DNA of 64,000 bases from Anaerolinea thermophila. Its GTDB lineage: Bacteria > Chloroflexota > Anaerolineae > Anaerolineales > Anaerolineaceae. Both the position numbers and the translations under genes were made by a program. Location of the stretch: assembly GCF_020723905.1 (NCBI RefSeq), contig NZ_DYHZ01000001.1, forward strand, positions 117,501 to 181,500, written 5' to 3'. This document shows, piece after piece, positions 1,833-33,299 of the stretch (the first letter of the stretch is position 1; each line of letters begins with the position of its first letter). The notes below the pieces were generated by a model. The model saw nothing but the letters and a program-made list of their open reading frames with translations, was not told the origin of the DNA and made no database searches.

Positions 1833-1853
1833 ACTAATTAATGATTAATAAGT
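1833..1853. promoter_or_regulatory. Palindromic operator for the ROK repressor
   Basis: A 21-bp palindrome with arms ACTAATTAAT and ATTAATAAGT around a central G, 9 of 10 arm positions matching. It begins 17 bp upstream of the ROK start codon and sits directly downstream of that gene's -10 box, so it covers the predicted transcription start. AT-rich palindromes of about 20 bp are typical ROK operators. Assignment to this ROK protein is inferred from position. Confidence 0.7.
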
Positions 1854-1881
1854 ATTGTAGCCCTTCAAAACAAAAAGTCAA
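1854..1881 (-). promoter_or_regulatory. Promoter of the ROK gene
   Basis: On the minus strand TTGACT (1876-1881), a 16-bp spacer, then TACAAT (1854-1859). The predicted start of transcription falls inside the palindrome at 1833-1853. The remainder of the 1817-2044 gap between the divergent genes holds no gene I can support. Confidence 0.65.
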
Positions 1882-2016
1882 GATGTTTTTGGGATTCTTC
1901 CGGAACTGGTTTACCTCTCTTCCGGGTTTTCAAAATCCAGTCTGGCACAATCCTTGCATGATGAGATTCAGAAATGTGTCCAATTTCAATACAAAAATAA
2001 GGAACGCAGGGAACGA

Positions 2017-2025
2017 TGCTATAAT
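2017..2025 (+). promoter_or_regulatory. Extended -10 promoter for the kinase-like gene
   Basis: TGCTATAAT, a consensus -10 with the upstream TG. No clear -35 box. It ends 19 bp before the ATG at 2045 and supports that start over an in-frame ATG at 1841 that lies inside the ROK operator. Confidence 0.55.
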
Positions 2026-2044
2026 TTTTAAAAGTCAAACCTCC

Positions 2045-4426
2045 ATGAACACAATCTCTCAATCGCTCCTTGGTTTGTTGATTACCCCGCCAGGTAACCT
2101 GATTTATCACCTGGTGCTGGCATTTGTTGTATTTGCCACCCTGCAGGTCGCATTGATTGCCCGGCGGAGTCACGCTCCAGAGGGCAGCGGACGCCTGCTG
2201 TTGGGGTTAAATCTGCTCCTGTTGGGGCAATTGGGGTTGTTTGTAGCCAGTGGACTGGCCTGGCAGGGGATAATTTCAGCCACCATTTTTCTGCCAGTGC
2301 TGGATCGGGTTATCCTGTTCTGGAGCGTGGCGTGGCTTGGCTGGCTCTGGCTTTTCCCAACCCCATCGCGCCTGGGAGAAATCCTTGTTGGTGTTCTCAA
2401 TCTGGCGGCAGTGTTTATGTTTTTGCTGTTCTACACCACCTGGCTCCAGGAAGGCAACGGCACTCCCTTTAACGGCTCATGGCAGGATTGGAGCGTTACT
2501 CTGGCTATTCTCCTTCTGCTGGTTGCCATGATCATCGGATTAATCTTCCAGCGTAGGGGCAACTGGGGAGTTGGGATCGCCATGTTTGCCCTGATGGGAC
2601 TGGGAGCGCTTGCCCAATTGTATTTACCCCCAACAGGGGAGCACTTTTCCGGGTATTTACGTCTGGGATTTCTGGCAGGATTGCCGCTATTGCCCAGTCT
2701 GCTGGTTCATGTCCAGGTTCAGAGTCAGGTGACTGAATGGGAAGCGGCAGAGCCATATCCAGAAGAACACCTCTCCCCTGCCCATCAGCATGCGCTGGAC
2801 ATTCGCATCATTCATTCCTGGCTGGATTTGAGCCTTTTACAGGACAAAGAAAAACTGCACAGCGGGGTCGCGCGAGCCGTAGCCCAAACCATGCTGGCAG
2901 ATTTATGTTACGTCGCCCGCATCCCCGACAATGAATTTGCCCCCATCCCGCTCACGGGTGGGTACGACATGGTCAAAGACGAACCCATTCCCCCAACCTA
3001 TATCGAGCGCACCAAAATCCCTGCCATCACCGCCTCGCTCACAAAAGGGAAGGGACTGCGCGTCAACTTCAGCGAATTTGAACTGCCTGAACTGGATGCG
3101 CTTGCTCAAACTCTGGGACTGGAGCGGGCAGGAAACTTCCTGTTGATTCCTCTGGAACACAATCACCAACCCTGGGGTGGACTTTTCCTGCTCACGCCAT
3201 ATTCCGGCAGGGTATGGACAGCCGATGACAGTACTTACCTTGCTACCGAAACCGAAGAGATTGTGCGGTTGCTCCTCGAACGAGAAAAATCATCGCGCGG
3301 AGATGATGAACTCCAGCGCCTGCGACAGCAGAATACCCTGCTACAACAGGAACTGGAACAGTTACGCCAGTCTCACCAGAAGATCCTTGAGGAAGTACAA
3401 TCTCTAAGGAAATCCGCCTCTCCCGAAAGTGCCGGGGCTTCGGCACAGATCGAAACCCTGCTGAAACATCAACGGGAGATGGAAAAAGTGCTGGAAGAAC
3501 TGCGGGCTGAAAACCGCCGATTGAACGAAGCATTGCGTAGCGCCCAGGCATCGCCGGTTTCGTCGCCCTCCAGTGCTTCCACTCAACTGGAAAAGGAATT
3601 GCGCCTTACGCTGGAAGAGGTGGCGCATTTACAAAACCAGTTAGCCAGATCCAATCAGCGCATTCTGGAACTGGAGCGGCGGCTCAGCCTGTCTACCAGC
3701 GCCACCCAGGATGATACCGAAGCCATTGCCGTGCTGATTCAAGAACTGCGCCGTCCGATGTCGGCAGTAATGGGGTACACGGATTTACTCCTCGCCGAAA
3801 CGGTTGGCATCCTGGGCGGGTTACAGCGCAAGTTTCTGGAAAAAGTGCGCAATGCTGCGGAACAAATGCGCACCCTGCTGGATGATCTCATCCAGTTAAC
3901 CCTGCTCAACCGCGGACCGCTGGAACTGGTCCAGCAGACAGTGGAACTGGATCAGGTACTGGATAATGCCCTGCAAGAACTGGGCTCATTCTTGACCGAG
4001 AAGGAACTGCAAATCTCCATTGAATTGCCTGAACATCTACCGCCCGTCTATGCTGACCGGGACGCGCTACACCAGATACTGATCGAACTTCTGAAGAATG
4101 CCATTCAGGTCACGCCGCCCCAGAAAGATATCCGGCTGAAGGCAATTCTCCAGCAAGAGGACAGCAGTCATTTTGTGGTGCTTCAGGTGAGCGACCGCGG
4201 CGGGGGGATAGCCCCAAAAGATCTACCCAGAGTCTTTGCGCACCGAAAGGACGTTGTTCTTCCCGGCATTGCCGATAGCGGCGTAGGGCTTTCCATTACC
4301 AAAACCCTTGTAGAAGCCCATGGAGGGCGCATCTGGGTAGAAAGCAATTTGGAACAGGGAAGCACCACGTTCAGCGTCCTGCTCCCGCTCCATGCGGCAG
4401 GGACAAAGGGGAATCCTGAAGAATGA
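2045..4426 (+). CDS. Membrane histidine-kinase-like protein lacking the phospho-acceptor His
   Basis: Predicted membrane sensor, 793 residues. Residues about 15-230 hold seven or eight hydrophobic helices, about 255-410 a GAF-like domain, about 415-555 a long coiled coil, about 557-620 a HisKA-type dimerisation helix pair and about 665-785 a GHKL ATPase. The ATPase keeps its N box (LIELLKNAIQ), DRGGGI and the GVGLSITKTLVEAHGGRIWVES region. The HisKA box, normally H-E-L-R-x-P, reads I-Q-E-L-R-R-P, so Gln 566 replaces the phosphorylated His. It may work as a dimeric partner of another kinase or as a non-phosphorylating sensor. The stop overlaps the start of the next gene by 4 bp, which suggests a shared role in envelope sensing. 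I chose 2045 because the longer frame starts inside the upstream operator and is not hydrophobic. Confidence 0.85.
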   Translation: MNTISQSLLGLLITPPGNLIYHLVLAFVVFATLQVALIARRSHAPEGSGRLLLGLNLLLLGQLGLFVASGLAWQGIISATIFLPVLDRVILFWSVAWLGWLWLFPTPSRLGEILVGVLNLAAVFMFLLFYTTWLQEGNGTPFNGSWQDWSVTLAILLLLVAMIIGLIFQRRGNWGVGIAMFALMGLGALAQLYLPPTGEHFSGYLRLGFLAGLPLLPSLLVHVQVQSQVTEWEAAEPYPEEHLSPAHQHALDIRIIHSWLDLSLLQDKEKLHSGVARAVAQTMLADLCYVARIPDNEFAPIPLTGGYDMVKDEPIPPTYIERTKIPAITASLTKGKGLRVNFSEFELPELDALAQTLGLERAGNFLLIPLEHNHQPWGGLFLLTPYSGRVWTADDSTYLATETEEIVRLLLEREKSSRGDDELQRLRQQNTLLQQELEQLRQSHQKILEEVQSLRKSASPESAGASAQIETLLKHQREMEKVLEELRAENRRLNEALRSAQASPVSSPSSASTQLEKELRLTLEEVAHLQNQLARSNQRILELERRLSLSTSATQDDTEAIAVLIQELRRPMSAVMGYTDLLLAETVGILGGLQRKFLEKVRNAAEQMRTLLDDLIQLTLLNRGPLELVQQTVELDQVLDNALQELGSFLTEKELQISIELPEHLPPVYADRDALHQILIELLKNAIQVTPPQKDIRLKAILQQEDSSHFVVLQVSDRGGGIAPKDLPRVFAHRKDVVLPGIADSGVGLSITKTLVEAHGGRIWVESNLEQGSTTFSVLLPLHAAGTKGNPEE

Positions 4427-8770: not shown

Positions 8771-8780
8771 AACAGAAATG

Positions 8781-8786
8781 ATTATA
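8781..8786 (-). promoter_or_regulatory. -10 box of tilS
   Basis: TATAAT on the minus strand ends 10 bp before the tilS ATG at 8770, so transcription would begin only about 4 nt before the start codon. No clear -35. Confidence 0.45.
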
Positions 8787-8816
8787 TACCGTTTCCCTTA
8801 ACCTTGAATTTAAGAA

Positions 8817-8825
8817 TGCTATAAT
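8817..8825 (+). promoter_or_regulatory. Extended -10 promoter of the hybrid sensor gene
   Basis: TGCTATAAT 42 bp before the ATG at 8868, followed at 8829-8838 by the perfect 10-bp palindrome CTTGATCAAG near the expected transcription start. The palindrome may be a regulator site. Confidence 0.5.
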
Positions 8826-8867
8826 CAACTTGATCAAGCGGTATCCATTCTGTCCCAGGTCGAGCCT

Positions 8868-11800
8868 ATGCAACCGCCCGTCATTGGAATCCTGATTTAC
8901 CCGGGAGACCCTTTCTGGATCCAGACTTATGAAGCCATCCAGCGTGCGAACGAGAAAGTAGGCGCTGAATTCAAAGTATTTAACTTTGCGGAAAACTTTA
9001 AAGCGGTTCGCTCGTATGATCCTTATGCCGTTGCGGAGGAAATTCTGGCGCATCGGCTGGATGCCTTCATTTCCACCATCCTTCCTCAGGCAACCACACA
9101 GACCCTGTTGAATGCCGGATTACCCATTATCCAGTTGGGTGAAACCACACTGCGTCACCCTCTGCTGGTCACCCCCATCGGATTGCGTGAGGCTGCAAAC
9201 CTTGCAGGGGAATTTATCGGTAAACAGTTGAATGGTAAAGGGCGGGTGCTGTTCATCGGGGCTTTTATGGAAGACCCGCTTGAAGAAGACCGCGGCGAGA
9301 GCCGTCTGGAAGGCTTCAGCATTGCCATGAAGCAATTCCCCGAGATTCAATTCGAAGTCATTGGAGCATACTGGAGTTATGCTCCCGCCTGTGAGGCTTT
9401 GCGAGAAGCATTTCAGCACGTGCGCGGACCCGTAGATGCCATCTTTGGCGCCTCGGATTGGGTGGCACTGGCGGCGCGAGATGTCGGACATGAGATGGGC
9501 ATCTTTGCTCCGCATACTCTTCTGGTAGGGCTTAACGGCGATCCTCTGGCACTGGAAGCCATTGCCAATGGAACCATGACTGCCACTGTGGAAACCTGCG
9601 CTGAAGACTTTGGAACGCGTGCGTTACTCATCGCTCGAGACGCCGCCAGCGGAAAACCCTTCCCACCCCACATTTTCCATACTATTCGACTCATCACAGC
9701 GGAAAACGTTGCCGCTACGGCAACCCGGAAACTGATTGCCATTGCAGGACTGCCGAACCGGCTGGTCGGTTTCAACCGCGAAAACGAAGTTTTTCGCTTT
9801 CATCATCTCGAAACCAGCGCCCGGATCATCCAAAAAATTGGCGCCATTCTCGATCAGGATCAACTGGTCAGCACCATTGCCGATTTGATTCGGGAATCGT
9901 ACGGCTTTAACGATGTACAGGTGTATCTTCTCCGGCAGGACACGCAAAGTCTGCAACCTCTGATTGGCAGTGAGGCACACATCTCACTCGAACACAGCGG
10001 ACTGCCCGGAGAGGCATTAAGACGCAATGAAGCCATTTTGATCCCCGATTTTTCATTCAGTCAGCGTTATCAGGCTGACCCCAGTCATCCATGGATACGC
10101 TCGCGGGTGCTCCTTCCCATTCATATCGCTCAGGAAGCAATTGGCGTGCTGGACTTGCGCAGGGACCAGCCGACCCCCTCGTTAATTCAACAACAGCAGG
10201 GATTACAACTGCTGGCAGATATGCTGGGAATCGCCATTCAAAATGCGCGTCTTTATCAGGAAGCCCGCAACGCCCAGAACACCGCTGAGCGAGCCAATCA
10301 GTTAAAAACCCGCCTGCTGGCAAATGTAGGACATGAGATGCGCACCCCGCTCAATGTGATTTTAGGCTATGCGCAATCAGCCCTCACCCGCCACAAGCGC
10401 AGTGGACATCACGACGAAGAACTGGAGCGGGATTTGCAAACCATTTCTCAAAGCGGAGAGCACCTTCTGCGCATGATCAACGATTTGCTCGACCTTTCCC
10501 GGGCAGAAATCGGTGCTTTGAACATGTACTTCGAGTGGATTGACCCTCGTCCGATCATCCTGGAAGCCTTTGAGACGTTTGCCCGCTCGGATGAGCATCA
10601 TCCTTCTATCCGATGGCGGGTGGAAGTTCCCGAACGCCTGCCCATCGTACAGGTAGATTCGGCACGGTTGAAGCAAATTCTGTTAAACCTGCTTAGCAAT
10701 GCGCGCAAATTCACCCACGCGGGAGAGATTGTATTAAGCGCGCAAATTGAACCGCCTTTTTTGCGCATCTCCGTGGCAGATACAGGCGAAGGCATTTCGC
10801 TGGAACAGCAAGAACGATTGTTTGAGCCTTTCAGCGCCAGCATGGGAAAGCGCCGTCCCAGCGGCATTGGGCTGGGGTTGAGCATTACCCGTCACCTGAT
10901 TGCCCTGCACGGGGGAACGATGACGCTGGAAAGCCAACCCGGCAAGGGAAGTACATTTTACATTTATCTGCCCCTGCCAGGTTTAAGCGGCAAAGCCAGC
11001 CAGCACCACGAAAAACAAAACCACCTCCCGCCAGCCATGTTCATTTTGAGCACACGGGGAGAAATTTCACCCACCATCCGGGAAATTTGCGCTAACCAGA
11101 ATTTCGTTCCGGCGTTCATACGTTCCCCCAAAGACCTGGAAGTTCACCTTGAGCATTATCACCCGGTAGCCCTGGCGTGGGATCTGGACTGTGCCAGCAC
11201 CGAAGACTGGATGCTGTATCAGTGGTTGCACACCCAGGTGGATATGGGAGATCTCCCCTTTCTGCTCTTCCACCATTCCCCGACAGAAACCGGACTGGTG
11301 CAGGTGCTGACCAAACCCACCCGTTCCGAAACCCTGCTGGAATGGATTACCGCCCTTGCTCCCAGCCAGCCAGGCAGGCGCGCTTTCCTGATCGTGGATG
11401 ATGATGCCCAGGCTCGAATGACATATCGCCGTCTCATTGAAACGTATTTTCCTCAAACCGCGGTTCTGGAAGCCTCCAGCGGAGAAGAGGCAATCCAGTG
11501 TCTGCAATCACAGACCCCTGCATTGATTCTGCTGGATTTGCTGATGCCGGGGATGAGCGGTTTTGAATTACTGGAACGATTACGCCGCCAGCCTCATACC
11601 CGCACTGTGCCGGTGATTGTCATCAGCGGCAAGTTGTTAACCCACGCCGACATTCAGCGGTTGAATTATCCTTACGTCTCGTTCCAGAGTAAGGAAATTC
11701 TCACCCCGGAAGAGTGGAAAGAGGTGCTCCAGGAGATTCTGGGACATCCCCACAACGGAGAAAACTCCAGCCCGCTCATCCGGCAGGCACTCGCATTCAT

Positions 11801-12131
11801 TCACCAGAATTACATGCTCCCCATCAGCCGCAAAGACATTGCCCGGTCCGTCAACCTGAGCGAGAATTACTTTACCTCGCTGTTCCGGGAGGAAATGCAC
11901 CTGACACCATGGGAGTACCTGACCCGTTTGCGCATCCGGATTGCCTGCCGTCTGCTGCAGGAAACCTCATTGAATATCAAAGCCATTGCTTTGCAGGTGG
12001 GATTCAGCGATCCTGGCTACTTTACGCGCGTCTTCACCAGATTGATGGGAGACACCCCCCAGAATTATCGCCGGGATGCCTCACGTCAGCCTTTCGCGCG
12101 AACGGTGAATTTTCCTAAACTATCAACTTAA
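8868..12131 (+). CDS. One-piece hybrid two-component regulator: LacI-like sensor, GAF, kinase, receiver, AraC domain
   Basis: A 1087-residue protein that carries a whole signalling chain. Residues about 1-310 are a periplasmic-binding-protein/LacI-type sugar sensor (VIGILIYPGDPFWIQTYEAIQRA; YLxFASDWVAL-type region reads DAIFGASDWVALAARDVG). No signal peptide or membrane helix is present, so it senses in the cytoplasm. About 325-470 is GAF. About 475-560 is HisKA with intact His 489 (GHEMRTPLN). About 600-705 is a GHKL ATPase (NLLSNARKF, DTGEGI, GIGLGLSITRHL). About 720-835 is a receiver-like domain without the phospho-Asp. About 845-960 is a true receiver (VDDD, Asp 890, PVIVISGK). About 975-1080 is an AraC-type double helix-turn-helix ending in VGFSDPGYFTRVFTRLMGDTP. 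It heads the transporter/GH4 cluster and probably activates it in response to an imported sugar. Confidence 0.92.
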   Translation: MQPPVIGILIYPGDPFWIQTYEAIQRANEKVGAEFKVFNFAENFKAVRSYDPYAVAEEILAHRLDAFISTILPQATTQTLLNAGLPIIQLGETTLRHPLLVTPIGLREAANLAGEFIGKQLNGKGRVLFIGAFMEDPLEEDRGESRLEGFSIAMKQFPEIQFEVIGAYWSYAPACEALREAFQHVRGPVDAIFGASDWVALAARDVGHEMGIFAPHTLLVGLNGDPLALEAIANGTMTATVETCAEDFGTRALLIARDAASGKPFPPHIFHTIRLITAENVAATATRKLIAIAGLPNRLVGFNRENEVFRFHHLETSARIIQKIGAILDQDQLVSTIADLIRESYGFNDVQVYLLRQDTQSLQPLIGSEAHISLEHSGLPGEALRRNEAILIPDFSFSQRYQADPSHPWIRSRVLLPIHIAQEAIGVLDLRRDQPTPSLIQQQQGLQLLADMLGIAIQNARLYQEARNAQNTAERANQLKTRLLANVGHEMRTPLNVILGYAQSALTRHKRSGHHDEELERDLQTISQSGEHLLRMINDLLDLSRAEIGALNMYFEWIDPRPIILEAFETFARSDEHHPSIRWRVEVPERLPIVQVDSARLKQILLNLLSNARKFTHAGEIVLSAQIEPPFLRISVADTGEGISLEQQERLFEPFSASMGKRRPSGIGLGLSITRHLIALHGGTMTLESQPGKGSTFYIYLPLPGLSGKASQHHEKQNHLPPAMFILSTRGEISPTIREICANQNFVPAFIRSPKDLEVHLEHYHPVALAWDLDCASTEDWMLYQWLHTQVDMGDLPFLLFHHSPTETGLVQVLTKPTRSETLLEWITALAPSQPGRRAFLIVDDDAQARMTYRRLIETYFPQTAVLEASSGEEAIQCLQSQTPALILLDLLMPGMSGFELLERLRRQPHTRTVPVIVISGKLLTHADIQRLNYPYVSFQSKEILTPEEWKEVLQEILGHPHNGENSSPLIRQALAFIHQNYMLPISRKDIARSVNLSENYFTSLFREEMHLTPWEYLTRLRIRIACRLLQETSLNIKAIALQVGFSDPGYFTRVFTRLMGDTPQNYRRDASRQPFARTVNFPKLST

Positions 12132-12246
12132 AATCCAATTCTGGCGGCAACAATTTTCCTATACTGAAACTGGTAATCTATTACCCCCTGATTTTCTTTT
12201 GTATCTCAGGGACAGGCGCTAAAGGTTCCATTCTGGAGGAACATAG

Positions 12247-12633
12247 ATGAAGCCTGCCGTTCTCATTCTGGATGATGACCATCCAACGCTTGAACTGTAC
12301 ACACGGGAACTTTCCGATGAATATGTGGTATTTCCCTGTTCTTCCATCCCAGAAGCCATTCCTCTCCTCACCCAGGAGCATCTTGCGGCAATTGTCTTTG
12401 AACCGGCAATGGAGAATGGCGAAGGCTGGGATTTCCTCCAGAAACTGGCAGAATTTTGCATTCCACGGCATATTCCCATCATTTTCTGCAGTACACAGGA
12501 CGAACACCGTGCCGAAATTCCCCCGGCGGCAGGGAAGTTTCTGGTTAAACCTGTCCTGCCCAATCAACTGGCACAGACGCTTAAGCAAATCCTTCACCAA
12601 TCTTCTCCTAAATCTAAGGAAATCAGCGCATGA
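12247..12633 (+). CDS. Stand-alone receiver domain with Asp-to-Glu at the phosphorylation site
   Basis: 128-residue CheY-like protein. The acidic pocket (LILDDDHP), the Thr/Ser position (IIFCSTQ) and the conserved Lys (FLVKPV) are present. The strand that should end in the phospho-acceptor Asp reads AAIVFEPAMENGEGW, placing Glu 52 there. Glu at this site often mimics the phosphorylated state, so the protein may be permanently 'on' or respond to something else. No output domain. Its stop overlaps the start of the ABC ATPase gene (ATGA), tying its synthesis to the transporter. It could be a partner of the hybrid regulator upstream. Confidence 0.85.
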   Translation: MKPAVLILDDDHPTLELYTRELSDEYVVFPCSSIPEAIPLLTQEHLAAIVFEPAMENGEGWDFLQKLAEFCIPRHIPIIFCSTQDEHRAEIPPAAGKFLVKPVLPNQLAQTLKQILHQSSPKSKEISA

Positions 12634-13646
12634 ATGGGACTTCAACCACTGACTCGCTTCCTTTGCTGGAAATCAAAGACCTGCGAACGTACTTCTTCCT
12701 GGAAAAAGGCACTGTCCGTGCCGTAGACGGCGTTAACCTGTCGCTTCAACGAAAGACCACACTTGGGCTGGTCGGCGAAAGCGGTTGCGGGAAGAGTATC
12801 ACCGCCATGTCCATCATGCGATTGATTCAGGAACCGCCCGGGAAAATTGTCTCGGGGGAAATTCTGTTGCGCTCCCGCACTTTTGGGCAGGTTCTCGATC
12901 TTGCCAAACTGGACCGGCACTCTCAGACAATGCGCGCCATCCGCGGTGGAGAGATTGCCATGGTCTTTCAAGAGCCAATGACGTCTTTGAATCCACTCTA
13001 CACCATTGGCGACCAGATTGCTGAAGCGGTACAACTTCACCAAAAGGTAAGCAAAAAAGAAGCACTGGAACGTGCGCTGGAGATGCTGGTTAAAGTCCAG
13101 ATTGCCATGCCCAAGCAACGCCTGCGGGAATATCCCCATCAACTATCGGGGGGCATGCGCCAACGGGTAATGATCGCCATGGCGCTGTCCTGCAATCCTT
13201 CCATTTTGATTGCGGATGAGCCCACTACCGCGCTGGACGTGACCGTCCAGGCACAAATCCTCGACTTGATGCGCCAGTTGCAGGAGGATATTGACTCATC
13301 CATCATCATGATTACCCACAATCTGGGTGTGGTTTCCCAGATGGCGCATTTTGTGGCCGTGATGTACCTGGGTAAGGTAGTGGAATATGGAACAACCAAC
13401 GATATCTTCCACCGCAGTCTGCACCCATACACAGTAGGGTTGTTAAATTCTGTGCCCGTTTTGGGAAGAAAAGGGAAGAAAGTCCTCGTCCCCATCGAAG
13501 GCATCGTCCCCAGTCCCATGAACATCCCCCCGGGCTGTCCATTCGCCAGCCGCTGTCCCAAAGTCATGCCTAAGTGCCGCGAGGTCAATCCTGAATTGCA
13601 GGAAAAAGAGAGCGGGCACTGGGTTTCGTGCTGGCTTTATGAGTAA
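12630..13646 (+). CDS. OppD/DppD-type ABC transporter ATPase
   Basis: ATPase of an oligopeptide/oligosaccharide importer, 338 residues, cytoplasmic face. Walker A GESGCGKS near residue 50, Q loop [11 protein letters not shown], signature LSGGMRQRV, Walker [13 protein letters not shown], switch His in MITHNLG. The C-terminal region (about 260-330) has the oligopeptide-type cysteine motif (GCPFASRCP...C...C) found in OppD/DppD. Context with GH4 alpha-galactosidases suggests an alpha-galactoside rather than a peptide as substrate; the S. meliloti agp system is a known precedent of this transporter type. Confidence 0.93.
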
Positions 13647-13763: not shown

Positions 13764-15935
<2,172 letters not shown>

Positions 15936-15998: not shown

Positions 15999-16997
<999 letters not shown>

Positions 16998-17017
16998 GAA
17001 AACTTGCGGAGGTTCAC

Positions 17018-18148
17018 ATGGCAAACAAAAAACTAAAATCCGCTTCAGCCGTTATCCTGCGCGCCAGAGAACATGAGTCCTATGGAACACTGGTCTGGCG
17101 GCGCTTCCGCAAGAGCAAAATCGCCATTTTGGGCGGTTTGATGGTGATCATGTTGATTGTCCTGGCGATTTTTTCCGATTTCTTTGCACCATACGACCCC
17201 GTTAGACTCAACATGCGCAGCGGGTACATTCCCCCTCATCGGGTACATTTTATTGATGCCGAGGGTAAATTTCATCTCCGTCCATTCATTTATGGATGGA
17301 AACAGGTGCTGGATGAGAACATGTTCCCTAAATGGGTAGAAGACACCTCCAAAGCCTACCCCATTTACTTTTTTGTCCGTGGCTGGGAGTATAAACTGCT
17401 GGGCTTTATCCCCATGAACATTCACCTGTATGGCTTGAAAGATCCTGAGGGGATGATCTTTCTGCTCGGCTCGGACAAATTTGGGCGCGATATCTTCTCC
17501 CGCTCCTGTCTGGCAGGGCGGATTTCGCTCTCCATGTCCCTGTTCGGTACCATTATCAGTGTGGCAGTGGGCTCTGTGCTGGGGGTCATCTCAGGTTACT
17601 TTGGCGGTGCTGTCGACACGTACATGCAACGATTTGTGGAGTTTGTGCAATCCTTCCCCCAGTTGCCATTATGGATGGCGCTGGCAGCAATCATTCCCGA
17701 CACATGGGATCAGTTTGCTGTCTTTGTGGTCATGTCTTCTATCTTTGCCCTGCTTTCATGGACTCTGCTGGCGCGTGAGGTGCGCGGAAAAGTCCTGTCT
17801 CTGCGGGAGACCGATTTCGTCCTTGCCGCTCGAGAAATGGGCGCCTCAGACTGGCGCATCATCTTCCATCACCTGTACCCCAACACACTCAGCCATACCA
17901 TTGTCGTGCTCACCCTCACCATTCCGACCATCATTCTGGCAGAAAGTTTCCTGAGTTTCCTGGGAATTGGCATTCAGGAACCTCTGGTTTCCTGGGGAGT
18001 GATGATGCGCGAAGCACAGACCATCCAGACACTGGGCTTCAATATCTGGATTATCTCTCCGGTGTTCTTCATATTCATAGCGGTGCTGGGGTGGAACTTC
18101 CTCGGCGATGGTTTAAGAGACGCCGCAGACCCCTATACCATCCTCTAG
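17018..18148 (+). CDS. OppC/DppC-type permease
   Basis: Second membrane subunit, 376 residues. The start at 17018 is preceded by GGAGG at 7 bp; an upstream in-frame TTG at 16994 is unlikely. N-terminal OppC motif ([40 protein letters not shown]), then a roughly 90-residue extracytoplasmic segment between helices 1 and 2 that is longer than in peptide permeases, then [13 protein letters not shown] and the EAA loop [26 protein letters not shown]. The long loop is common in the sugar-type members of the family and may contact the large binding protein. Confidence 0.93.
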
Positions 18149-18158: not shown

Positions 18159-19187
18159 ATGACAATCAGTTCGTTTTCGGACCCAATTCTCGAAGTTAAG
18201 AACCTGAAAATGTACTTTCCCATCCGCGGAGGGTTTTTCCAGACCATTAAGGGGTACGTCAAAGCGGTGGACGGCATCAGTTTTTCCGTTCGGGAAAATG
18301 AAGTGCTCGGGCTGGTTGGGGAAAGTGGATGTGGAAAAACAACAGCGGGGCGCACCATCCTGAGGTTGTATGACCCCACCGATGGGGAAATCTGGTTCCG
18401 CAAGAAAGACGGGGAACGGGTAGAAATTTCTAAATACACCCAAAAACAAATGATGCCCCTGCGCCGTGAAATGCGCATGATCTTTCAAGACCCGTTCAGT
18501 TCACTCAATCCGCGCCGCACGGTTAAGGAAATCATCGGCGAACCGCTCATCATCCACAACATTGCCAGGGGAAGAGAACTGGAAGATCGGGTGGCGTATT
18601 TGATGACTGCCGTGGGTCTCGACCCCGCTTACATGGATCGCTACCCGCACGAGTTCTCGGGCGGACAACGCCAGCGCATCGGGATTGCCCGTACCCTTTC
18701 TCTCAGCCCGCGCCTGATCGTTGCCGACGAACCCGTATCTGCGCTGGATGTGTCCATTCAGGCTCAGGTTCTAAATCTGCTGCAGAATCTGAAAGAAGAT
18801 CTGGGTTTGACCCTTATCTTTGTGGCGCATGATTTGTCGGTCGTGGAACACATTTCGGACCGCATTGCCGTGATGTATGTGGGAAAAATCGTGGAACTCT
18901 CCGAAACCGAAAATGTGCTCTACCACCCCCTCCATCCCTACACTGAAGCACTGGTTTCCGCCATCCCTCCTGCCGACCCCGATATCAAAATGCACCGCAT
19001 TCCTCTCCAGGGGGACGTACCCAGCCCTGCCAATCCGCCCAAGGGTTGCGTGTTCCACCCACGCTGTCGGTACGCCCGAGACATTTGCAGTCAACAGGAA
19101 CCCACCTTGCGAGAAGTAGAACCCGGACATTTTGCTTCATGTCACTTTGCCGGAGAATTGAGTCTACGAGGAATTGGAGGAGAATGA
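18159..19187 (+). CDS. OppF/DppF-type ABC transporter ATPase
   Basis: Second ATPase of the importer, 342 residues. Walker [11 protein letters not shown] loop [15 protein letters not shown], signature [14 protein letters not shown], Walker [13 protein letters not shown], switch VAHDLSVV. The C-terminal oligopeptide motif is present ([15 protein letters not shown]). It completes the set with the OppD-type ATPase and two permeases. The stop codon is one base before the next gene's ATG. Confidence 0.94.
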
Positions 19188-19188
19188 C

Positions 19189-19551
19189 ATGGACCGGTCA
19201 CGCATCACTGCCTTTCTCAGTTATTTCGTGCTCTTTTTGGGAAGCCTTTACGTGTTGATCTTTGAACGCCATGATGACTACGCCCGCTACCATGCCCTGC
19301 AGGCTCTCGGTCTGGTGTTCTTTGCGGCAGGAGTTTTTTTGGGTTGGGCAGTTCTGGGCTTTCTGGTAGCCTGGATTCCCCTGGTGGGACCTGTGTTGAG
19401 CATTTCCATGTTTGCGCTGGTAATTGCAGCATGGATTTTTGCGGTAGTTGCATGGGTGATCGGCATGGCAAACGCCGTACGCGGGTTGATTGCTCCCCTC
19501 CCGCTGATCGGACGCTGGGCGGAAAAACTGCCCTTTGGGCAAATTGCATAA
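19189..19551 (+). CDS. Small DUF4870-type membrane protein
   Basis: 120 residues, three to four hydrophobic helices. The N-terminal SRITAFLSYFVLFLGSLYVLIFERHDDYARYHALQALGLVFF resembles the DUF4870/Tic20-like family (short helix, then a conserved YHALQAL-type motif before the second helix). The start at 19189 follows GGAGG; a TTG five codons earlier is less likely. It sits between the ATPase (1 bp gap) and the first GH4 gene, so it is expressed with the sugar operon. Function unknown. Confidence 0.75.
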   Translation: MDRSRITAFLSYFVLFLGSLYVLIFERHDDYARYHALQALGLVFFAAGVFLGWAVLGFLVAWIPLVGPVLSISMFALVIAAWIFAVVAWVIGMANAVRGLIAPLPLIGRWAEKLPFGQIA

Positions 19552-19574
19552 CTGGATAATGAAAGGATGACTGC

Positions 19575-20912
19575 ATGGCAAAAATTGTACTGATTGGCGC
19601 CGGAAGCACCGTCTTCACCCGCAACCTTTGCAACGATATTCTGCTCACCCCGGCGCTTCAAGAAAGTGACATCGTCCTGATGGACATTAACGCCGAGCGA
19701 TTAAACGCGGCTTACAAACTGGTAGAAGCCTTAATCCAGCAGAGAAAGTTGAAAGCCCACGTTGAGGCGACCCTGGACCGCCGGGAAGCCCTTACCGGCG
19801 CGGATTACGTCATCACCACTTTTCAACAAGGGGGATTAGACGCATATCGGCTGGATATTGAAATTCCTCTGAAATACGGCGTTGGACAGTGCGTAGGAGA
19901 TACGCTGGGACCGGGTGGCGTCTTCCGGGCGTTGCGCACTATTCCGGTCCTGCTCGATATTTGCGATGAGATGGACGATCTCGCTCCAGACGCTTTGCTT
20001 CTCAACTACGTCAACCCCATGGCGGCAAATTGCTGGGCAGTGAGCGCCGGTTCAGGACGTCCTTTTGTAGGGTTATGTCACTCGGTACAGGGCACCAGCG
20101 AGATGCTGGCACAGTGGGTTCAGGTACCTTATGAGGAAGTGAACTTCCTCTGCGCCGGAATCAATCACCAGGCTTTCTTCCTGGAATTTCGCCGTGGGAA
20201 GGAAGACCTTTACCCGGCGCTGTGGAAAGCCATCGAAAAACCTGAAATTTACGAGACCGAACCGGTACGATGCGAATTAATGAAGTATTTTGGTTACTTT
20301 GTCACCGAATCCAGCGGACATGCCAGTGAGTACGTGCCCTACTTCCGCAAATCCGTGGAGATGATTGAAAAAGATCTGGTGCCGCGCTTCAAGAGTCCAC
20401 AGGACTTCTGGTTTGACTTCGGGCGCACCGGTGGCTACCTGCGCCATTGCGAGCGCACCGCTCAAACGTTCCAGCAGGAATTTCAGGAACTGCTCGACGG
20501 CGTGCGCACCTTGAGCACTCAGCGAAGTCATGAATATGGTTCGTATATCATCGAAGCCATCGAGACCAACAAACCTGTCAAAATCAACGGCAATGTACCT
20601 AACTTTGGGCTGATTACCAACCTGCCGCATGGATGCACGGTAGAAGTGCCCTGTCTGGTAGATGCCAGCGGCATTCAACCGGTCAGCATTGGCGATTTAC
20701 CCCCTCAACTGGCGGCATTAAACCGCACAAACGTCAATGTACAGGAATTAATTGTGGAAGCCGCCCTCTCTGGCGAAGTGGATGCCGTGTATCATGCCGT
20801 GATGCTGGATCCGCTGACCGCGGCAGTGTGCACCCTGCCGCAAATCCATGCCATGGTTCGGGAAATGCTTGAAGCCCAAAAGCCATGGCTGCCACAATTT
20901 TCAATCCAATAA
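19575..20912 (+). CDS. Glycoside hydrolase family 4, first paralogue
   Basis: Cytoplasmic glycosidase using NAD+ and a divalent metal by an oxidation-elimination mechanism; 445 residues. The Rossmann motif KIVLIGAGSTVFTRN opens the protein. The metal-site Cys is in GLCHSVQGTS and the metal-site His in GINHQAFF. The GH4 pattern GDTLGPGGVFRALRTIPVLL and LLNYVNPMAANCW are present. It is shorter than the second enzyme and reads NHQ and ESSGHASEY where MelA reads NHM and ESSEHFSEY, which suggests a different sugar. The CHS motif places it with the alpha-galactosidase-like branch rather than 6-phospho-glycosidases. Confidence 0.9.
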   Translation: MAKIVLIGAGSTVFTRNLCNDILLTPALQESDIVLMDINAERLNAAYKLVEALIQQRKLKAHVEATLDRREALTGADYVITTFQQGGLDAYRLDIEIPLKYGVGQCVGDTLGPGGVFRALRTIPVLLDICDEMDDLAPDALLLNYVNPMAANCWAVSAGSGRPFVGLCHSVQGTSEMLAQWVQVPYEEVNFLCAGINHQAFFLEFRRGKEDLYPALWKAIEKPEIYETEPVRCELMKYFGYFVTESSGHASEYVPYFRKSVEMIEKDLVPRFKSPQDFWFDFGRTGGYLRHCERTAQTFQQEFQELLDGVRTLSTQRSHEYGSYIIEAIETNKPVKINGNVPNFGLITNLPHGCTVEVPCLVDASGIQPVSIGDLPPQLAALNRTNVNVQELIVEAALSGEVDAVYHAVMLDPLTAAVCTLPQIHAMVREMLEAQKPWLPQFSIQ

Positions 20913-20941
20913 TTGAACTCAAAAAGAGAAAGGAGACTCGT

Positions 20942-22342
20942 ATGCCCAAAATTGCTTTTATCGGAGCCGGAAGCACGGTCTTTGCTAAAAACCTGCTGGG
21001 AGATATCCTCAGTTTTCCGGAACTCGCCAACTCCACCATCGCTTTGATGGATATTGACGAGACTCGCCTGAATACCACCCGGCTGGTCGCAGAACGAATT
21101 GCCCGCTCACTGGGAGCCCATCCCACCATAGAAGCCACTACCGACCGACGCAAAGCCATAGCAGGGGCAGATTATGTGATCACCATGTTCCAGATTGGCG
21201 GTTACCGCCCCAGCACAGTGATTGACTTTGAAATTCCCAAAAAGTACGGCCTGCGCCAGACCATTGCTGATACCCTGGGCATTGGCGGGATCATGCGCGC
21301 CCTGCGCACGATCCCTGTCCTGCTGGATCTGGCAAAAGAGATGGAAGAACTGTGCCCGCATGCCCTCCTGCTTAACTACGTCAATCCCATGGCAATGAAC
21401 ATGTGGGCACTCAACCGCGCCAGCAAGATTCGCAATGTGGGCTTATGCCACTCTGTACAGGGGACGGCAATGCAAATTGCCCATGATATTGGCGTGCCTA
21501 TCGAGGAAATCAACTACCTGTGCGCAGGCATCAACCACATGGCGTTTTATCTGAAATTTGAGCGCAAAACCCCTCAGGGGGTGGAAGACCTGTACCCGCG
21601 CATCCACCAGGTGTACAAAGAAGGACGCGTGCCCGACTGGAACCGCGTGCGCTACGAAATGCTCAAACGACTGGGGTATTTTGTCACCGAGTCCAGTGAG
21701 CACTTCAGTGAATATGTGCCGTGGTTTATCAAACGCGATCGTCCCGACCTCATCGAGAAGTTCAACATTCCGCTGGATGAATACATCCGCCGTTGTGAGG
21801 TACAAATTGCGGGCTGGGAAGCCACCAAGGACGTGGTGGAGAACCCCGGTTTACCCATCAACATCCCGTTGATTCAGGAAAAACTGCGCGCGGCAGGCGC
21901 CACCGATTGGGATATCCAGTGGGTGACCGAGATTGCTTCCAAATTTGACCAGATCGAGAAATCTCACGAATACGGCTCTTACATCATCCACTCTCTGGAA
22001 ACGGGCATTCCACGGGTAATTTACGGGAACGTGGAAAACCGCGGCTTGATTGACAACCTGCCGCAAGGTTGCACCGTCGAAGTACCCTGTCTGGTGGATA
22101 AGAACGGCATCCAGCCCACCAAGATTGGCATGCTCCCGCCGCACCTTGCCGCGCTGATGCAAACCAATATCAACGTGCAAGCCCTGACGGTGGAAGCCGC
22201 CCTGACCGGCAAACGCGAGCATATCTACCATGCCGCCATGCTCGATCCGCACACCGCCGCCGAACTGGATCTGGATCAGATCTGGAACCTGGTAGATGAT
22301 CTGATCGAAGCCCACGGCGATATGTTACCCAAATTCCACTAG
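20942..22342 (+). CDS. melA: Alpha-galactosidase, GH4 MelA type
   Basis: Cleaves alpha-galactosides such as melibiose and raffinose inside the cell; 466 residues. The start at 20942 has a GGAGA site. It follows E. coli MelA closely from memory over the full length: FIGAGSTVFAKN, FQIGGYRPSTVIDFEIPKKYGL, GDTLGIGGIMRALRTIP, LLNYVNPMAMNMW, GLCHSVQGTA, GINHMAFYLKFERKT, ESSEHFSEYVPWFIK, DNLPQGCTVEVPCLVDKNGIQPTKIG and LAALMQTNINVQ. Cys and His metal ligands are intact. It is the last gene before a strong terminator and gives the best clue to what the transporter carries. Confidence 0.92.
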   Translation: MPKIAFIGAGSTVFAKNLLGDILSFPELANSTIALMDIDETRLNTTRLVAERIARSLGAHPTIEATTDRRKAIAGADYVITMFQIGGYRPSTVIDFEIPKKYGLRQTIADTLGIGGIMRALRTIPVLLDLAKEMEELCPHALLLNYVNPMAMNMWALNRASKIRNVGLCHSVQGTAMQIAHDIGVPIEEINYLCAGINHMAFYLKFERKTPQGVEDLYPRIHQVYKEGRVPDWNRVRYEMLKRLGYFVTESSEHFSEYVPWFIKRDRPDLIEKFNIPLDEYIRRCEVQIAGWEATKDVVENPGLPINIPLIQEKLRAAGATDWDIQWVTEIASKFDQIEKSHEYGSYIIHSLETGIPRVIYGNVENRGLIDNLPQGCTVEVPCLVDKNGIQPTKIGMLPPHLAALMQTNINVQALTVEAALTGKREHIYHAAMLDPHTAAELDLDQIWNLVDDLIEAHGDMLPKFH

Positions 22343-22364: not shown

Positions 22365-22402
22365 GCGGAGTACTGTCCAAGCGGCGGTACTCCGCATTTT
22401 TT
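22365..22402 (+). terminator. Rho-independent terminator of the sugar operon
   Basis: Perfect 9-bp stem GCGGAGTAC / GTACTCCGC, 13-nt loop, followed by ATTTTTT. Located 22 bp after the melA stop. Confidence 0.9.
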
Positions 22403-24336: not shown

Positions 24337-27333
24337 TTAGAACCCTTCCAGTTTGGAAAAATCTGCCACCCCACAGGCAAGTGCAGCAATGCGCTGAAGC
24401 AATCCCAGACGGTTGGCACGCAAATCGGCATCCTCCGCCATAACCAGCACGGTATCGAAGAAACGATTGATGGCGGGGATCATCGGCAGGAAAGCGGCGA
24501 AGAAATCATCCACCGAGCCTGACTGCCGGGGGGCGGCTTCGGCTTGCAACAGGGCATCGTAAAGCGCCCGCTCCTCTACCTCAACAAACCGCTCGGGGCG
24601 AACCGGAACCTGTTCTTTCTGATCCCGGGTGATGCGCACACAACGGGCATAAGCCGGAAGAATGACATTCCAGTCTTGACGCTGTACCCAGGCTGTCAAT
24701 GCCTGAGCGGCTCGGAAGGCTCCATACGGATTGTGGGCTTGTTCCGCCATGACCGCATCCACCACATCATACCGGAAGCCGTAATCTTCAATGAGATGGG
24801 TGCGCAAACGCCCATAGATAAATTCCAGGCAGGCATTCTGGCTTTCTTCAGTAGCCTGAATGGGCAATCCCTGCGCAGCCAGCACCAGCCCATGGCGAAG
24901 ATCGAAAGGAATCTGACGTCCAATCAACACCTGAACCAGACCCAATGCGGCACGACGTTGCGCAAAAGGATCTTTGGTGCCGCTGGGAGCCAGTCCGGCG
25001 GCAAATAACCCGGAAAGAGTATCCAGCCGGTCGGCTACGCTCAACAAAATGCCCGGCAGGGTTTCGGGGAGAGCATCCCCCGCATAGCGGGGCAGATAAT
25101 GCTCAAAGATGGCATCGGCAACACCTTTGGGTTCGCCGGAATGTTCGGCGTAATACCGTCCCATAATCCCCTGCAGGGAGGTCATCTCAATCACCATGTG
25201 GGTGACCAGATCGGCTTTGAGCAAATATGCAGCACGGCGGGCAGTAGCCAGGTCCGTTGAGTTTAACCCGAAGAACGGTGCCAGTTTGTCTACAAGCGCT
25301 TCAACCCGGCGAGATTTGTCGAGCATCGAACCCAGTTTATACTGGAAGGTTAAAGTGCCCAAACGCGGTAGACGTTCTTCCAGAGTGTACTTTAAGTCTT
25401 CCTGAATGAAGAAAGAAGCATCGGCAAAGCGCGCCCCAATCACCTGCGCATTGCCATCGGCGACGACATCCAGATGCTGATCATCTCCATTGCGCACGGC
25501 AATAAAGTAAGGCAACAGCCCGCCCTGAGGAGCATACACCGGGAAATAGCGCTGGTGCTTCTTCATCACCGAAATCAAAACCTCCACGGGCAGTTTGAGG
25601 TATTCAGGATCAAAATTACCCCGAAGCGCGGTGGGGGCTTCGACCAGTTGGGTCACCTCATCGAGCAAACCTTCATCCAGTTGTGGCAAGCCACCCACTT
25701 CGGTCATCAAACGCTGAACCTGCCCGGCAATTGAGGCGCGGCGCTCTTCCGGGTCAAGGAGAATACCCTGAGACCGCAAGGCACTTTGATAATCCGAGGC
25801 GGATTTCAGGGTAAAGGTTTCGGGCTGGTAAAAACGCAATCCGCGGGTGATACGATCAGCGCGCAATCCGGCATACTCGAACGGCACCAGCGTATCCCCT
25901 AACAATGCCACCAGCCAGCGGATAGGGCGGGAGAACGCCACCTGACTGGCATTCCAGCGCATGGTTTTTTCAAAGCGCAGGGAGGCAATCAAACCGGGCA
26001 GGGCTTCGCCGAGCACATCCACGGCGGAACGCCCCTTCTCAAACACCTCAGCCACCACATATTGTCCGCCGTCCATTTCCTGGATTTTGAGGGCAGACAC
26101 ATCCAGACCGCGACTACGGGCAAATCCCTCAGCGGCTTTGGTGGGTTGGCCCTGAGCATCAAAGGCACGGGCAGCAGGCGGTCCTTTTACCACGGTTGTG
26201 CGGTCAGGTTGAGCCGGAGATAAATCTTCTACCAGCACTGCCAGCCGGCGGGGTGTTCCCCAAACGCGCACATCGCCATGGCTCAGGCGCAGTTCCTCCA
26301 GCAGAGCCGGCACTTTCTCCCGTAACTGCTCCAGCGCGGTCTGCAAATCGGCGGCAGGAAGTTCCTCGGTGCCAATCTCCAGAAGGAACAGTTCCGGCTG
26401 GCTAACCCCGCCGGTCTGTACCGCCGGGGCAGATTCTGCCTGAGGCGTTGTGTCTTCTTTGAGCCACGGGAACCCCAGACGTTCGCGCTGTTCCACGTAG
26501 GCAACGGCGATTCGGCGGGCGAGGTCACGCATGCGCCCAAAGAGCGCCTGCCGTTCGGTCACCCCGACTGCGCCCCGGGTATCCAGGACGTTAAAGGTGT
26601 GGGAACACTTCAGCACATAATCATGAGCAGGCAACACCAACCCTTGCTCGAGCGCAGCATTGGCTTCGGCTTCGTAGAGATTGTACATTTGCCAGAGACG
26701 ATCTACGTTGGCAACCTCAAAAGAATATTTGCTGTGTTCGTACTCTCCCTGAAGGTTGACATCGCCATACGTGCGGCTGGGGCTCCACTGAATATCGCGG
26801 AAATGACGGACCCGCTGGAGCGCCATGGCAATCCGTTCCAACCCGTAAGTAATCTCTACCGATACCGGCTCGAGGACAAAACCGCCCGCCTGCTGGAAGT
26901 AGGTGAACTGAGTAATTTCCTGACCGTCCAGCCAGACTTCCCAACCCAGTCCCCACGCACCCAGTGCTGGCGACTCCCAGTTATCCTCGACAAAGCGGAT
27001 ATCGTGTTCGCGCGGATTGATACCCAGCGCCATCAACGATTCGAGGTACAGTTCCTGAGGATTACCCGGATCGGGTTTGAGAATAACCTGAAACTGGTAA
27101 TGCTGGTTAAGACGGTTGGGATTTTCGCCATAGCGTCCGTCATCGGGACGAACCGACGGTTCCACATATGCCACATTCCAGGGTTCCGGACCCAGCACCC
27201 TTAAGTAGGTGGCTGGATTCATGGTGCCTGCGCCAACCTGCTGATTGTAGGGTTGCCAGATAAGACAACCCTTCCTGGACCAGTAATCCTGAAGTTTGAG
27301 AATAATTTCTTGAAAAGTCAGCGTTCGATCCAT
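24337..27333 (-). CDS. glyQS: Glycine--tRNA ligase, alpha and beta subunits in one chain
   Basis: Charges tRNA-Gly. In many bacteria this class II enzyme is a tetramer of separate GlyQ and GlyS; here both are one 998-residue chain. Residues about 1-290 are the GlyQ catalytic part ([83 protein letters not shown]). A short linker near 295-315 joins the GlyS part, which opens with [16 protein letters not shown] and includes [12 protein letters not shown] and [25 protein letters not shown]-type anticodon domain lies at about 890-990. Fused GlyRS is known in Chlamydiae and some other lineages. Confidence 0.95.
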
Positions 27334-32852: not shown

Positions 32853-33296
32853 ATGGGACAACGTCCTGTAAAAATCATCCCGATATTGTTATTGATGACA
32901 TTCCTTTTCCTGAGCGCGTGTTCTTCCCGTCAGTCCAGCCTGACGGTTAAAGAGCCCTGGGCACGGCTGGGAATTTCCGGTGGAAACAGCGCCATTTATC
33001 TGAAAATCGAGAACTCCACCGGAGAAGATGACGCCCTGGTCAGCGCCTCCTGCGATGCGGCAATGATGACCGAACTGCACATGACCCAGATGATGGATGA
33101 TGGCACCATGAAGATGGAGCCGCAGGAAAAAATCCCTCTGCCCGCCGGGCAAACCGTGGAGTTGAAACCAGGCGGATTGCACATCATGCTGATGAACCTG
33201 AAAAAGGATCTGAAAACAGGTGACACATTGACTCTGAAATTGAAATTTGAGAAAAGCGGAACCATTGAAGTCAAAGTGCCCGTGAGAGAACCGTGA
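32853..33296 (+). CDS. PCu(A)C-family copper chaperone lipoprotein
   Basis: Extracytoplasmic Cu(I)-binding protein that elsewhere helps load the CuA centre of cytochrome oxidase; 147 residues. Signal peptide ends in lipobox LSAC near residue 23. The conserved metal motif H-M-x-n-M-x-n-H-x-M is visible: ELHMTQMMDDGTMKMEPQ followed by GGLHIMLM. No Sco or oxidase gene is in the window, so its client is not known. Only 3 bp separate it from thpR, so the two are translationally linked. Confidence 0.88.
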   Translation: MGQRPVKIIPILLLMTFLFLSACSSRQSSLTVKEPWARLGISGGNSAIYLKIENSTGEDDALVSASCDAAMMTELHMTQMMDDGTMKMEPQEKIPLPAGQTVELKPGGLHIMLMNLKKDLKTGDTLTLKLKFEKSGTIEVKVPVREP

Positions 33297-33299
33297 TCC

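Follow-up and report, generated by a model that had tools for sequence, protein, structure and literature searches.

We propose, with a probability of roughly 55%, that a 1087-residue protein combining a sugar-binding-type sensor, a histidine kinase and an AraC output is a soluble, single-chain, sugar-responsive regulator of an α-galactoside uptake and hydrolysis operon, with a small stand-alone receiver that carries glutamate at its phospho-site (the Glu receiver) as its partner. Both genes lie in the window, a stretch of 64,000 nucleotides from Anaerolinea thermophila. The 128-residue Glu receiver gene, which heads the transporter operon, is new here, and in the open-licence literature (titles and starts of abstracts) we found no description of the regulator architecture or of the Glu receiver.

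The regulator gene and its parts are arranged as follows.

8798–8825, + strand: sigma-70-like promoter match 5' of the regulator, 10/12, a weak pattern match
8868–12131, + strand: regulator of the order PBP-GAF-HisKA-HATPase-pseudoREC-REC-AraC, 1087 aa, single open frame
8880–9749, + strand: cytoplasmic ribose-binding-type sensor domain, aa 5–294 (Pfam Peripla_BP_4, predicted model; 2ioy, 2x7x)
9852–10241, + strand: GAF domain, aa 329–458 (Pfam)
10305–10508, + strand: HisKA (Pfam, 480–547), phospho-acceptor His489 at 10332–10334
10656–10979, + strand: HATPase_c, aa 597–704 (Pfam), residues of the N, G1 and G2 boxes intact
11028–11315, + strand: REC1, degenerate receiver, aa 721–816 (alignment and predicted model, without a Pfam match)
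11388–11738, + strand: REC2, intact receiver, aa 841–957 (Pfam Response_reg 841–931), Asp890 at 11535–11537
11838–12074, + strand: AraC-type DNA-binding domain, aa 991–1069 (Pfam HTH_18)

Pfam matches and motif residues thus bear out the preliminary description, which had placed a sensor, a GAF domain, a kinase with His489, an intact receiver with Asp890 and an AraC domain in one protein. It had also taken the sensor to be signal-less and every domain to be soluble, naming a hidden signal peptide or membrane helix as the observation that would overturn this. A hydrophobicity search of the regulator, including 18 codons upstream of its start, found neither. The highest Kyte-Doolittle value of any 19-mer is 1.46, at residues 884–902 inside REC2, whereas three controls from the same window, a permease, a membrane kinase and an exported binding protein, reach 2.6, 2.9 and 2.5, respectively; with the 18 codons added, values near the N-terminus stay at or below 1.2. 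From stop to stop the frame spans only 1105 aa, and predicted models begin straight at the first strand of the sensor. All domains are therefore predicted to be soluble.

The sensor (Peripla_BP_4 at 11–263 of the regulator, 6.5e-16) has a confident sugar-binding-protein fold in its predicted model (m6df723cf2e23), and the structure prediction that had been suggested as a check, with failure counting against the idea, succeeded with a pLDDT of 90.8. Its best Foldseek match is a ribose-binding protein. In a structure comparison 4yo7 gave the best row (Z 29.0), and the fructose-binding sensor of BT1754, 2x7x, aligned with Z 27.7 and rmsd 3.6 over 286 residues; the sensor profile also matched 2x7x with an E-value of 7.7e-20. 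The full-length model reached a pTM of 0.47, and its best Foldseek E-value was for Caulobacter ShkA (6qrj), at low similarity overall (TM-scores 0.18 and 0.39, rmsd 19.5), so that the match speaks for the domains and gives no guide to how they are arranged.

Phosphotransfer would run over a single step. REC2 has the residues of an active receiver throughout (Asp844, Asp845, Asp890, Ser920 and Lys942). REC1 had been described as lacking its phospho-Asp; in fact Asp772 (11181–11183) stands at the phospho-site, where Trp771-Asp772 ends β-3 in the predicted model of the regulator, 24 of the 25 members aligned have it (L048 has Asn), and Lys816 is kept as well. What REC1 lacks is the acidic pair after β-1. 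A Pfam search of the regulator protein gave no match to an Hpt domain, and REC2 is its one phospho-competent receiver, which points to a single His-to-Asp step and not to a phosphorelay, the term used earlier, in the sense of several steps. Of the 31 distinct receiver-bearing members, the window's included, 30 retain His489 and 30 retain Asp890, and the sole exception (L065) has lost both together, with Gln for His489 and Asn for Asp890.

Among known systems, the Bacteroides hybrid two-component systems (HTCS) share the sensor, HisKA, HATPase, receiver and AraC output in one chain, and the sensor of BT1754 (2x7x) has the same fold as that of the window. BT1754 is described as sensing fructose in the periplasm across the membrane and as regulating adjacent sugar genes (PMC3404733). 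In contrast, the window regulator has no signal peptide or membrane helix and hence no transmembrane periplasmic sensor, it adds a GAF domain and a pseudo-receiver, and the Glu receiver gene then follows. Lacking a membrane sensor it is not an HTCS proper, and the best reading is that of a soluble variant working like one. With ShkA it has in common the HK-pseudoREC-REC order, a pseudo-receiver lying between HATPase and phospho-receiver. ShkA's pseudo-receiver is reported to bind c-di-GMP, with a DDR motif in the linker (PMC7010744), whereas inspection by eye of the REC1-REC2 linker in alignment A3 found no DDR motif in the window regulator (P0001) and none conserved. Unlike ShkA, which signals to the separate factor TacA, the regulator has its own DNA-binding domain. 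In related genomes, LacI-type PBP-HK-pseudoREC-REC-AraC proteins (L028–L042) likewise place kinase, receivers and AraC domain in this order, but their LacI-like sensor, which starts near the N-terminus, belongs to a different subfamily; in alignment A1 the GAF domain was matched in only 4 of 19 proteins, a total equal to the number of the window's kind, with members not itemized.

Downstream, on the same strand, the regulator apparently precedes an α-galactoside utilization operon.

12235–12239, + strand: GGAGG, ribosome-binding-site-like, 5' of the Glu receiver gene
12247–12633, + strand: stand-alone Glu receiver, 128 aa (Response_reg 9.9e-10), Glu52 (12400–12402) at the phospho-Asp position, Lys101 kept
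12630–13646, + strand: OppD-type ATPase (Pfam), its start overlapping the end of the Glu receiver gene by 4 bases
13764–15935, + strand: family 5 binding protein similar to the α-galactoside-binding protein 6epy, frame open from 13665
15999–16997, + strand: OppB-type permease (Pfam)
16994–18148, + strand: OppC-type permease (Pfam)
18159–19187, + strand: OppF-type ATPase (ABC_tran, oligo_HPY), named OppF from its position
19575–20912, + strand: first GH4 enzyme, α-galactosidase model NF011657, 608 bits (cut-off 486)
20885–22342, + strand: second GH4 enzyme, α-galactosidase model NF011657, 696 bits (cut-off 486)
22365–22395, + strand: terminator-like hairpin of 13 pairs 3' of the GH4 genes, a pattern match only

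The binding protein matches 6epy with an E-value of 2.8e-170, and both GH4 enzymes pass the 486-bit cut-off of the NCBIfam model NF011657 by which α-galactosidases were called here. The transporter and glycosidases noticed earlier next to the regulator are thus, as judged by sequence, an Opp-type importer and two α-galactosidases, and the Glu receiver gene between regulator and transporter had been overlooked. This neighborhood fits raffinose, melibiose or galactose, the sugars proposed earlier for testing, as candidate ligands. The region directly 5' of the Glu receiver gene, 12132–12246, is the proposed transporter promoter region. The region holds 4 sigma-70-like matches, fewer than in shuffles (mean 10.4), and 22 terminator-like hairpin matches compared with 18.0 in shuffles. 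An operator search found no direct or inverted repeats of at least 10 bases in 8771–8867 and 12132–12246, and one two-copy 10-mer with one overlapping palindrome in 19188–19574. A search for an operator shared between the window's 115-base gap and the gaps of ten relatives gave summed best 18-mers of 120, the same as in shuffles (mean 120.4, n=30).

The Glu receiver is an aspartate-less pseudo-receiver, a Response_reg match with glutamate at the phospho-site; of 27 copies aligned, 26 have this Glu and all 27 have the lysine. Proteins of this kind, plant PRRs included, have been described with Glu at that position (PMC12632262), and by comparison the Glu receivers are single-domain proteins whose family is linked to one soluble regulator and its importer operon. 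Of 48 regulator loci, counting those that are cut or broken, 30 have a copy nearby; in Anaerolinea thermolimosa (L054) it occurs together with the regulator and the Opp genes. Of 395 genomes of the class, 23 have the regulator, and 16 of these give a strong match to the Glu receiver; the other 372 give none, among the candidates scored (at most 5 per genome for the sensor and 10–11 for the receiver, a cap that may hide weaker copies; the samples for class and phylum partly overlap). Its most conserved part is the β5-α5 loop, with 3.91 bits compared with 2.47 in REC2; α-1 reaches 2.72 (REC2 2.25) and α-4 falls below that of REC2 (2.37 versus 3.07), a comparison that is only indicative, as the limits of helices and strands were drawn manually and the two alignments are composed differently. 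The β5-α5 loop and α-1 are the usual kinase-docking surfaces of receivers. We infer that the Glu receiver is a dedicated pseudo-receiver partner of the regulator. It is not indispensable, given that 7 of the 23 class genomes with the regulator have no strong match and that a search of the LacI-type sister loci yielded none. REC1 was considered as its source and set aside, since a profile comparison (REC1 96.4%, REC2 99.0%) gave no special link.

A rather doubtful alternative is that the Glu receiver has another job in the transporter operon and merely travels with it. In L057 and L062 the copy is indeed separated from the regulator by more than 6 kb, at the distal end of the importer genes and on their strand, and in G683 its neighbors are OppD and the binding protein, while the regulator is about 8.7 kb away. 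A passenger should nonetheless occur without the regulator, as such importers are expected to be common in the class, in which no strong match was seen outside regulator-bearing genomes. The Glu receiver is also absent at 4 of 5 His-less regulators compared with 10 of 36 others (Fisher p 0.039), a weak contrast among related sequences. This count covers 41 of the 48 loci, leaving out L010, L019, L044, L052, L060, L067 and L078 as cut, broken or short-flanked; L067 (774 bases downstream, no match) was left out and L125 (689) counted as absent, inclusion of L067 giving 11 of 37, and L072 and L073 were counted as lacking the gene though their contigs end early.

The regulator is not unique. The suggested search of genomes for the same domain order returned at least 31 distinct receiver-bearing members, the window's included, and at least 12 without receivers; the scan used two peptide patterns and was not exhaustive, so the counts are lower bounds. 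Tree and counts leave out L001 (the window copy), L019, L044, L052, L060 and L078 (cut or broken) as well as L107, L109 and L110, exported binding proteins by their hydrophobic N-termini. Relatives are mostly from Chloroflexota, the name carried by 35 of 38 loci from named genomes; the other three are labelled Gracilibacteria (two, from one bin) and Bacteroidetes (one), the last likely mis-binned, as the tree places its protein next to one from Anaerolineae. Neighborhoods were called for 37 relatives, of which 31 have a gene like part of the seed ABC importer (L059 and L075 by the ATPase alone) and 11 have a GH4, GH36 or GH31 gene among the neighbors listed.

Family members without receivers bear on a second alternative, a one-component switch like E. 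coli XylR, in which a sugar-induced change of the sensor dimer would position the AraC domains and kinase and receivers would be scaffolding. XylR is described as joining a LacI/GalR-type ligand-binding domain and an AraC DNA-binding domain in one chain, as the window regulator does; it is cytoplasmic and is not known to have a kinase or receivers, which the window regulator has. All 12 receiverless members retain sensor, GAF and AraC domains, the phospho-His is lost in 4 of them (L058 is one) and intact in 8 (L055 is one), and in L063, another of the four, the ATPase domain is mostly gone as well; evidently these proteins keep the sensor where no phosphate passes to a receiver on the same chain. 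In raw counts His loss is more frequent here than among receiver-bearing members (4/12 versus 1/31, Fisher p 0.017). That receiver loss leads to His loss is not established, the tree giving only 1–2 independent pairs; it needs at least two changes for receiver loss and four for His loss, and gives no direction of change because the outgroup rows do not form one clade. For the window protein such a switch is unlikely, considering its intact ATP-binding motifs, the near-complete retention of His489 and Asp890 in receiver-bearing members, and their joint loss in L065. We consider it very improbable that the kinase acts mainly in trans on other response regulators, with the attached receiver and AraC domain as a side branch or phosphate sink: the genome has many other stretches resembling the regulator's kinase or receiver parts (83 matches in all), and the intact His of eight receiverless members would agree, but in the operon only one stand-alone receiver was seen, with Glu as its phospho-site residue, and the fact that regulator and transporter genes are linked points to a local output.

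For the soluble single-chain regulator favored here, we infer the following path. A cytoplasmic monosaccharide or short sugar, most likely galactose or an α-galactoside, would bind the N-terminal sensor, whose state would set the dimeric kinase via long helices and the GAF domain. Phosphorylated His489 would pass its phosphate in one step to Asp890, and phosphorylated REC2 would free the AraC domain to bind DNA near 8771–8867 and 12132–12246. REC1 may act as a gate between kinase and REC2, as in ShkA. The Glu receiver, presumably not phosphorylatable, would dock on the regulator's kinase and tune it, and would thereby couple transporter levels to the output of the regulator. More tentatively, the two genes may form a Chloroflexota module in which an 'always-on' Glu receiver provides protein-level feedback to a soluble sugar-sensing kinase-AraC regulator, docking on the kinase core, reporting importer production and gating the regulator; in receiverless members it might stand in trans for the missing receiver, the kinase's conformation being read out, not phosphate.

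If this is true, the regulator is a soluble counterpart of the sugar sensors of gut Bacteroides: a single cytoplasmic polypeptide would sense the ligand, transfer phosphate and bind DNA, and every step from ligand to DNA could be studied in vitro with no membrane present. The Glu receiver would be a bacterial pseudo-receiver whose likely partner is named from the genome. The family, in turn, grades naturally from proteins with complete kinase and receiver parts to members that lack receivers or the phospho-His, and offers a ready test of the interconversion of two-component and one-component regulation.

The two genes at the centre of this analysis lie next to each other in the window:

8868-12131, + strand: the regulator, a single frame of 1087 residues
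12247-12633, + strand: a stand-alone receiver of 128 residues (the Glu receiver), overlooked in the preliminary description and located between the regulator and OppD

Pfam places a periplasmic-binding-type sensor, GAF, HisKA, HATPase_c, Response_reg and HTH_18 in this order along the regulator. That all of these parts would be soluble, as had been proposed, is borne out: the stop-to-stop frame adds just 18 codons, and the Kyte-Doolittle peak over 19-residue windows is 1.46 compared with 2.6, 2.9 and 2.5 for a permease, a membrane kinase and an exported protein from the window, so that the regulator is soluble by these tests. The full-length model reached a pLDDT of 80.3 with a pTM of 0.47, at which the interdomain placement is not reliable.

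Modelled alone, the sensor is well defined (pLDDT 90.8, pTM 0.86) and its structural matches are sugar-binding proteins. The top Foldseek match is 2ioy, the ribose-binding protein of Thermoanaerobacter, and the best VIA-align row is 4yo7 (Z 29.0, rmsd 3.0 over 276); the fructose-binding domain of BT1754, 2x7x, aligns with Z 27.7 and rmsd 3.6 over 286. The genes 3' of the regulator encode OppD, a family 5 binding protein, OppB, OppC, a second Opp-type ATPase and two GH4 enzymes, followed by a terminator-like hairpin (pattern match only). The earlier guess of raffinose, melibiose or galactose gains support at the sequence level from residues 79-714 of the binding protein, which match a periplasmic alpha-galactoside-binding protein with 571 bits, and from the GH4 enzymes, which score 608 and 696 bits on the NCBIfam alpha-galactosidase model (cut-off 486). 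Their closest PDB sequences are 6-phospho-beta-glucosidases, which match over the N-terminal half, so alpha-galactosidase activity is probable rather than certain. Because monosaccharide binders are frequent among the sensor's best structural matches and galactose is expected from the operon enzymes, galactose would be the simplest ligand.

The kinase motifs are intact, and the second receiver, REC2, carries the complete set Asp844, Asp845, Asp890, Ser920 and Lys942. The first receiver, REC1, had been described as lacking the phospho-aspartate. It is indeed degenerate, with the acidic pair missing, but the aspartate is there: in the model the third strand ends in Trp771-Asp772, aligned to the phospho-site, and Asp772 is conserved in 24 of 25 members of protein alignment A3 (Lys816 in 23 of 25). 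By the definition in a review (PMC12632262), REC1 is thus a pseudo-receiver, though not an aspartate-less one. Pfam found no Hpt domain within the protein, and phosphotransfer would therefore be one His-to-Asp step. ShkA, which likewise has a pseudo-receiver between kinase and receiver, gives the best Foldseek E-value for the full model (1.3e-20); with TM-scores of 0.18 and 0.39 and an rmsd of 19.5, the two as modelled agree in their domains, not in their arrangement. According to two papers (PMC7010744, PMC12632262), the ShkA kinase is kept off by its pseudo-receiver and receiver until the pseudo-receiver binds c-di-GMP. The DDR linker motif of ShkA was not seen by eye in the REC1-REC2 linker of A3, so the comparison extends to the idea of a gate but not to its ligand.

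GGAGG precedes the ATG of the Glu receiver gene, whose end overlaps the OppD frame by 4 bases. Its product is a lone receiver domain (Response_reg 9.9e-10) with Glu52 occupying the phospho-site. A six-frame profile search of 48 regulator loci, including cut or broken ones, located a gene of this kind near 30 of them, and in 20 of these 30 it starts within 700 bases downstream of the regulator on the same strand. Of 27 aligned sequences, 26 have Glu at the phospho-site and one (L048) has Asp; Lys101 and Pro53 never vary, and just 8 sequences carry an acidic residue at the second acidic position. Conservation peaks in the beta5-alpha5 loop, which surpasses its REC2 counterpart; the same holds for alpha-1 and beta-5, but in alpha-3 and alpha-4 REC2 is the better conserved of the two. 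This comparison is only indicative given hand-set borders and alignments of differing make-up. Response regulators use alpha-1 and the beta5-alpha5 loop as surfaces for docking to the kinase. In loci L057 and L062 and in genome G683, in which the regulator is separated from the importer, the Glu receiver remains beside the importer genes.

Both genes also co-occur. The sensor profile matches 57 of 395 class genomes at 1e-25, with 1e-95 or better in only 23; 25 matches at this level are followed by a 5e-61 fragment, one at 4e-44 and weaker ones, many in frames sized like exported binding proteins. The frames of the 25 span 1057-1205 residues (13), 716-917 residues (11) or are broken (one, 467). 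The Glu receiver profile gives 16 matches of at least 129.8 bits in 16 class genomes, the next score being 96 bits. Matches this strong fall in 16 of the 23 genomes with the regulator and in none of the other 372, counts uncorrected for kinship. In a phylum set of 400 genomes, which includes the window and partly overlaps the class set, the regulator occurs in five (1e-60) and the Glu receiver in four of these same five (1e-26). The fifth, G698, encodes an 872-residue regulator with Glu replacing His, corresponding to the receiverless L051.

Elsewhere in the window, a membrane histidine kinase of 861 residues (1841-4426, +) is followed by LysM and LCP genes, and a scan of neighbouring genes found no receiver gene. 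A 998-residue chain (24337-27333, -) unites the alpha and beta subunits of glycyl-tRNA synthetase. Two frames, 29885-32566 (-, 893 residues, adjoining dnaG) and 32889-33596 (-, 235 residues), have no Pfam match at 1e-5.

We propose that a sugar binds the regulator in the cytoplasm and would thereby control autophosphorylation, that phosphate would pass from His489 to Asp890, and that the AraC domain would bind the operon, for which operator searches returned no site. REC1 may serve as a gate, and the Glu receiver may be a partner that docks. The chief alternative is an XylR-like switch working without phosphate. After removal of duplicates, 31 receiver-bearing regulators (window included) and 12 receiverless ones of sensor-GAF-kinase-AraC order were read. 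Among the latter the phospho-His is absent in four (L051, L058, L063, L120), L063 also lacking most of its ATPase domain, and for such His-less relatives the phosphate-free switch is favoured. Of the 31 receiver-bearing members, 30 retain both His489 and Asp890 and one, L065, has lost both, and this joint conservation speaks against that switch in the window protein and for the phosphotransfer reading. For comparison, the review counts 722 of 76,471 HisKA domains that lack the His (PMC12632262). A tree built from the kinase and AraC columns requires at least two changes for receiver loss and at least four for His loss; the Glu receiver is still in the locus of 8 of the 12 receiverless regulators.

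A scan of an 84,980-species collection yielded 38 loci, 35 from records with Chloroflexota names; 31 of 37 neighbourhoods hold a gene resembling one of the seed ABC importer parts and 11 a GH4, GH36 or GH31 gene. FG-GAP/ASPIC-UnbV repeat proteins follow the importer genes in L068 (16563-18254), L049 (17824-19500) and L066 (17163-18923). In a clade of six (L059, L124, L125, L127, L128, L131), sensor Arg146 and Asn223 are not conserved and no Glu receiver was found in the flanking sequence covered; in L059 the fifth gene downstream is of URO-D type. A different ligand is suggested here. In several Roseiflexaceae-type relatives the regulator adjoins a diol/glycerol dehydratase-like gene (L073, 4410-6728; L076, 14584-16815; L077, gene +1; L069, 6861-9215, -), assigned by Pfam in L073 and elsewhere by similarity to the L073 gene, and a family 5 binding protein accompanies it in L073, L076 and L077. 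For part of the family the ligand may therefore be a polyol rather than a sugar. L028-L042 carry a LacI-like sensor from another subfamily on the same kinase-AraC chassis; of their eleven proteins in the tree, three fall inside a starred set together with six like the window protein, a grouping that points to sensor exchange.

Literature searches, confined to open-licence papers and judged by title and opening of the abstract, brought up no description of this architecture or of the Glu receiver. The regulator resembles the hybrid two-component systems (HTCS) of Bacteroides in working principle but is missing their membrane sensor, and would thus be HTCS-like without being an HTCS by membership.
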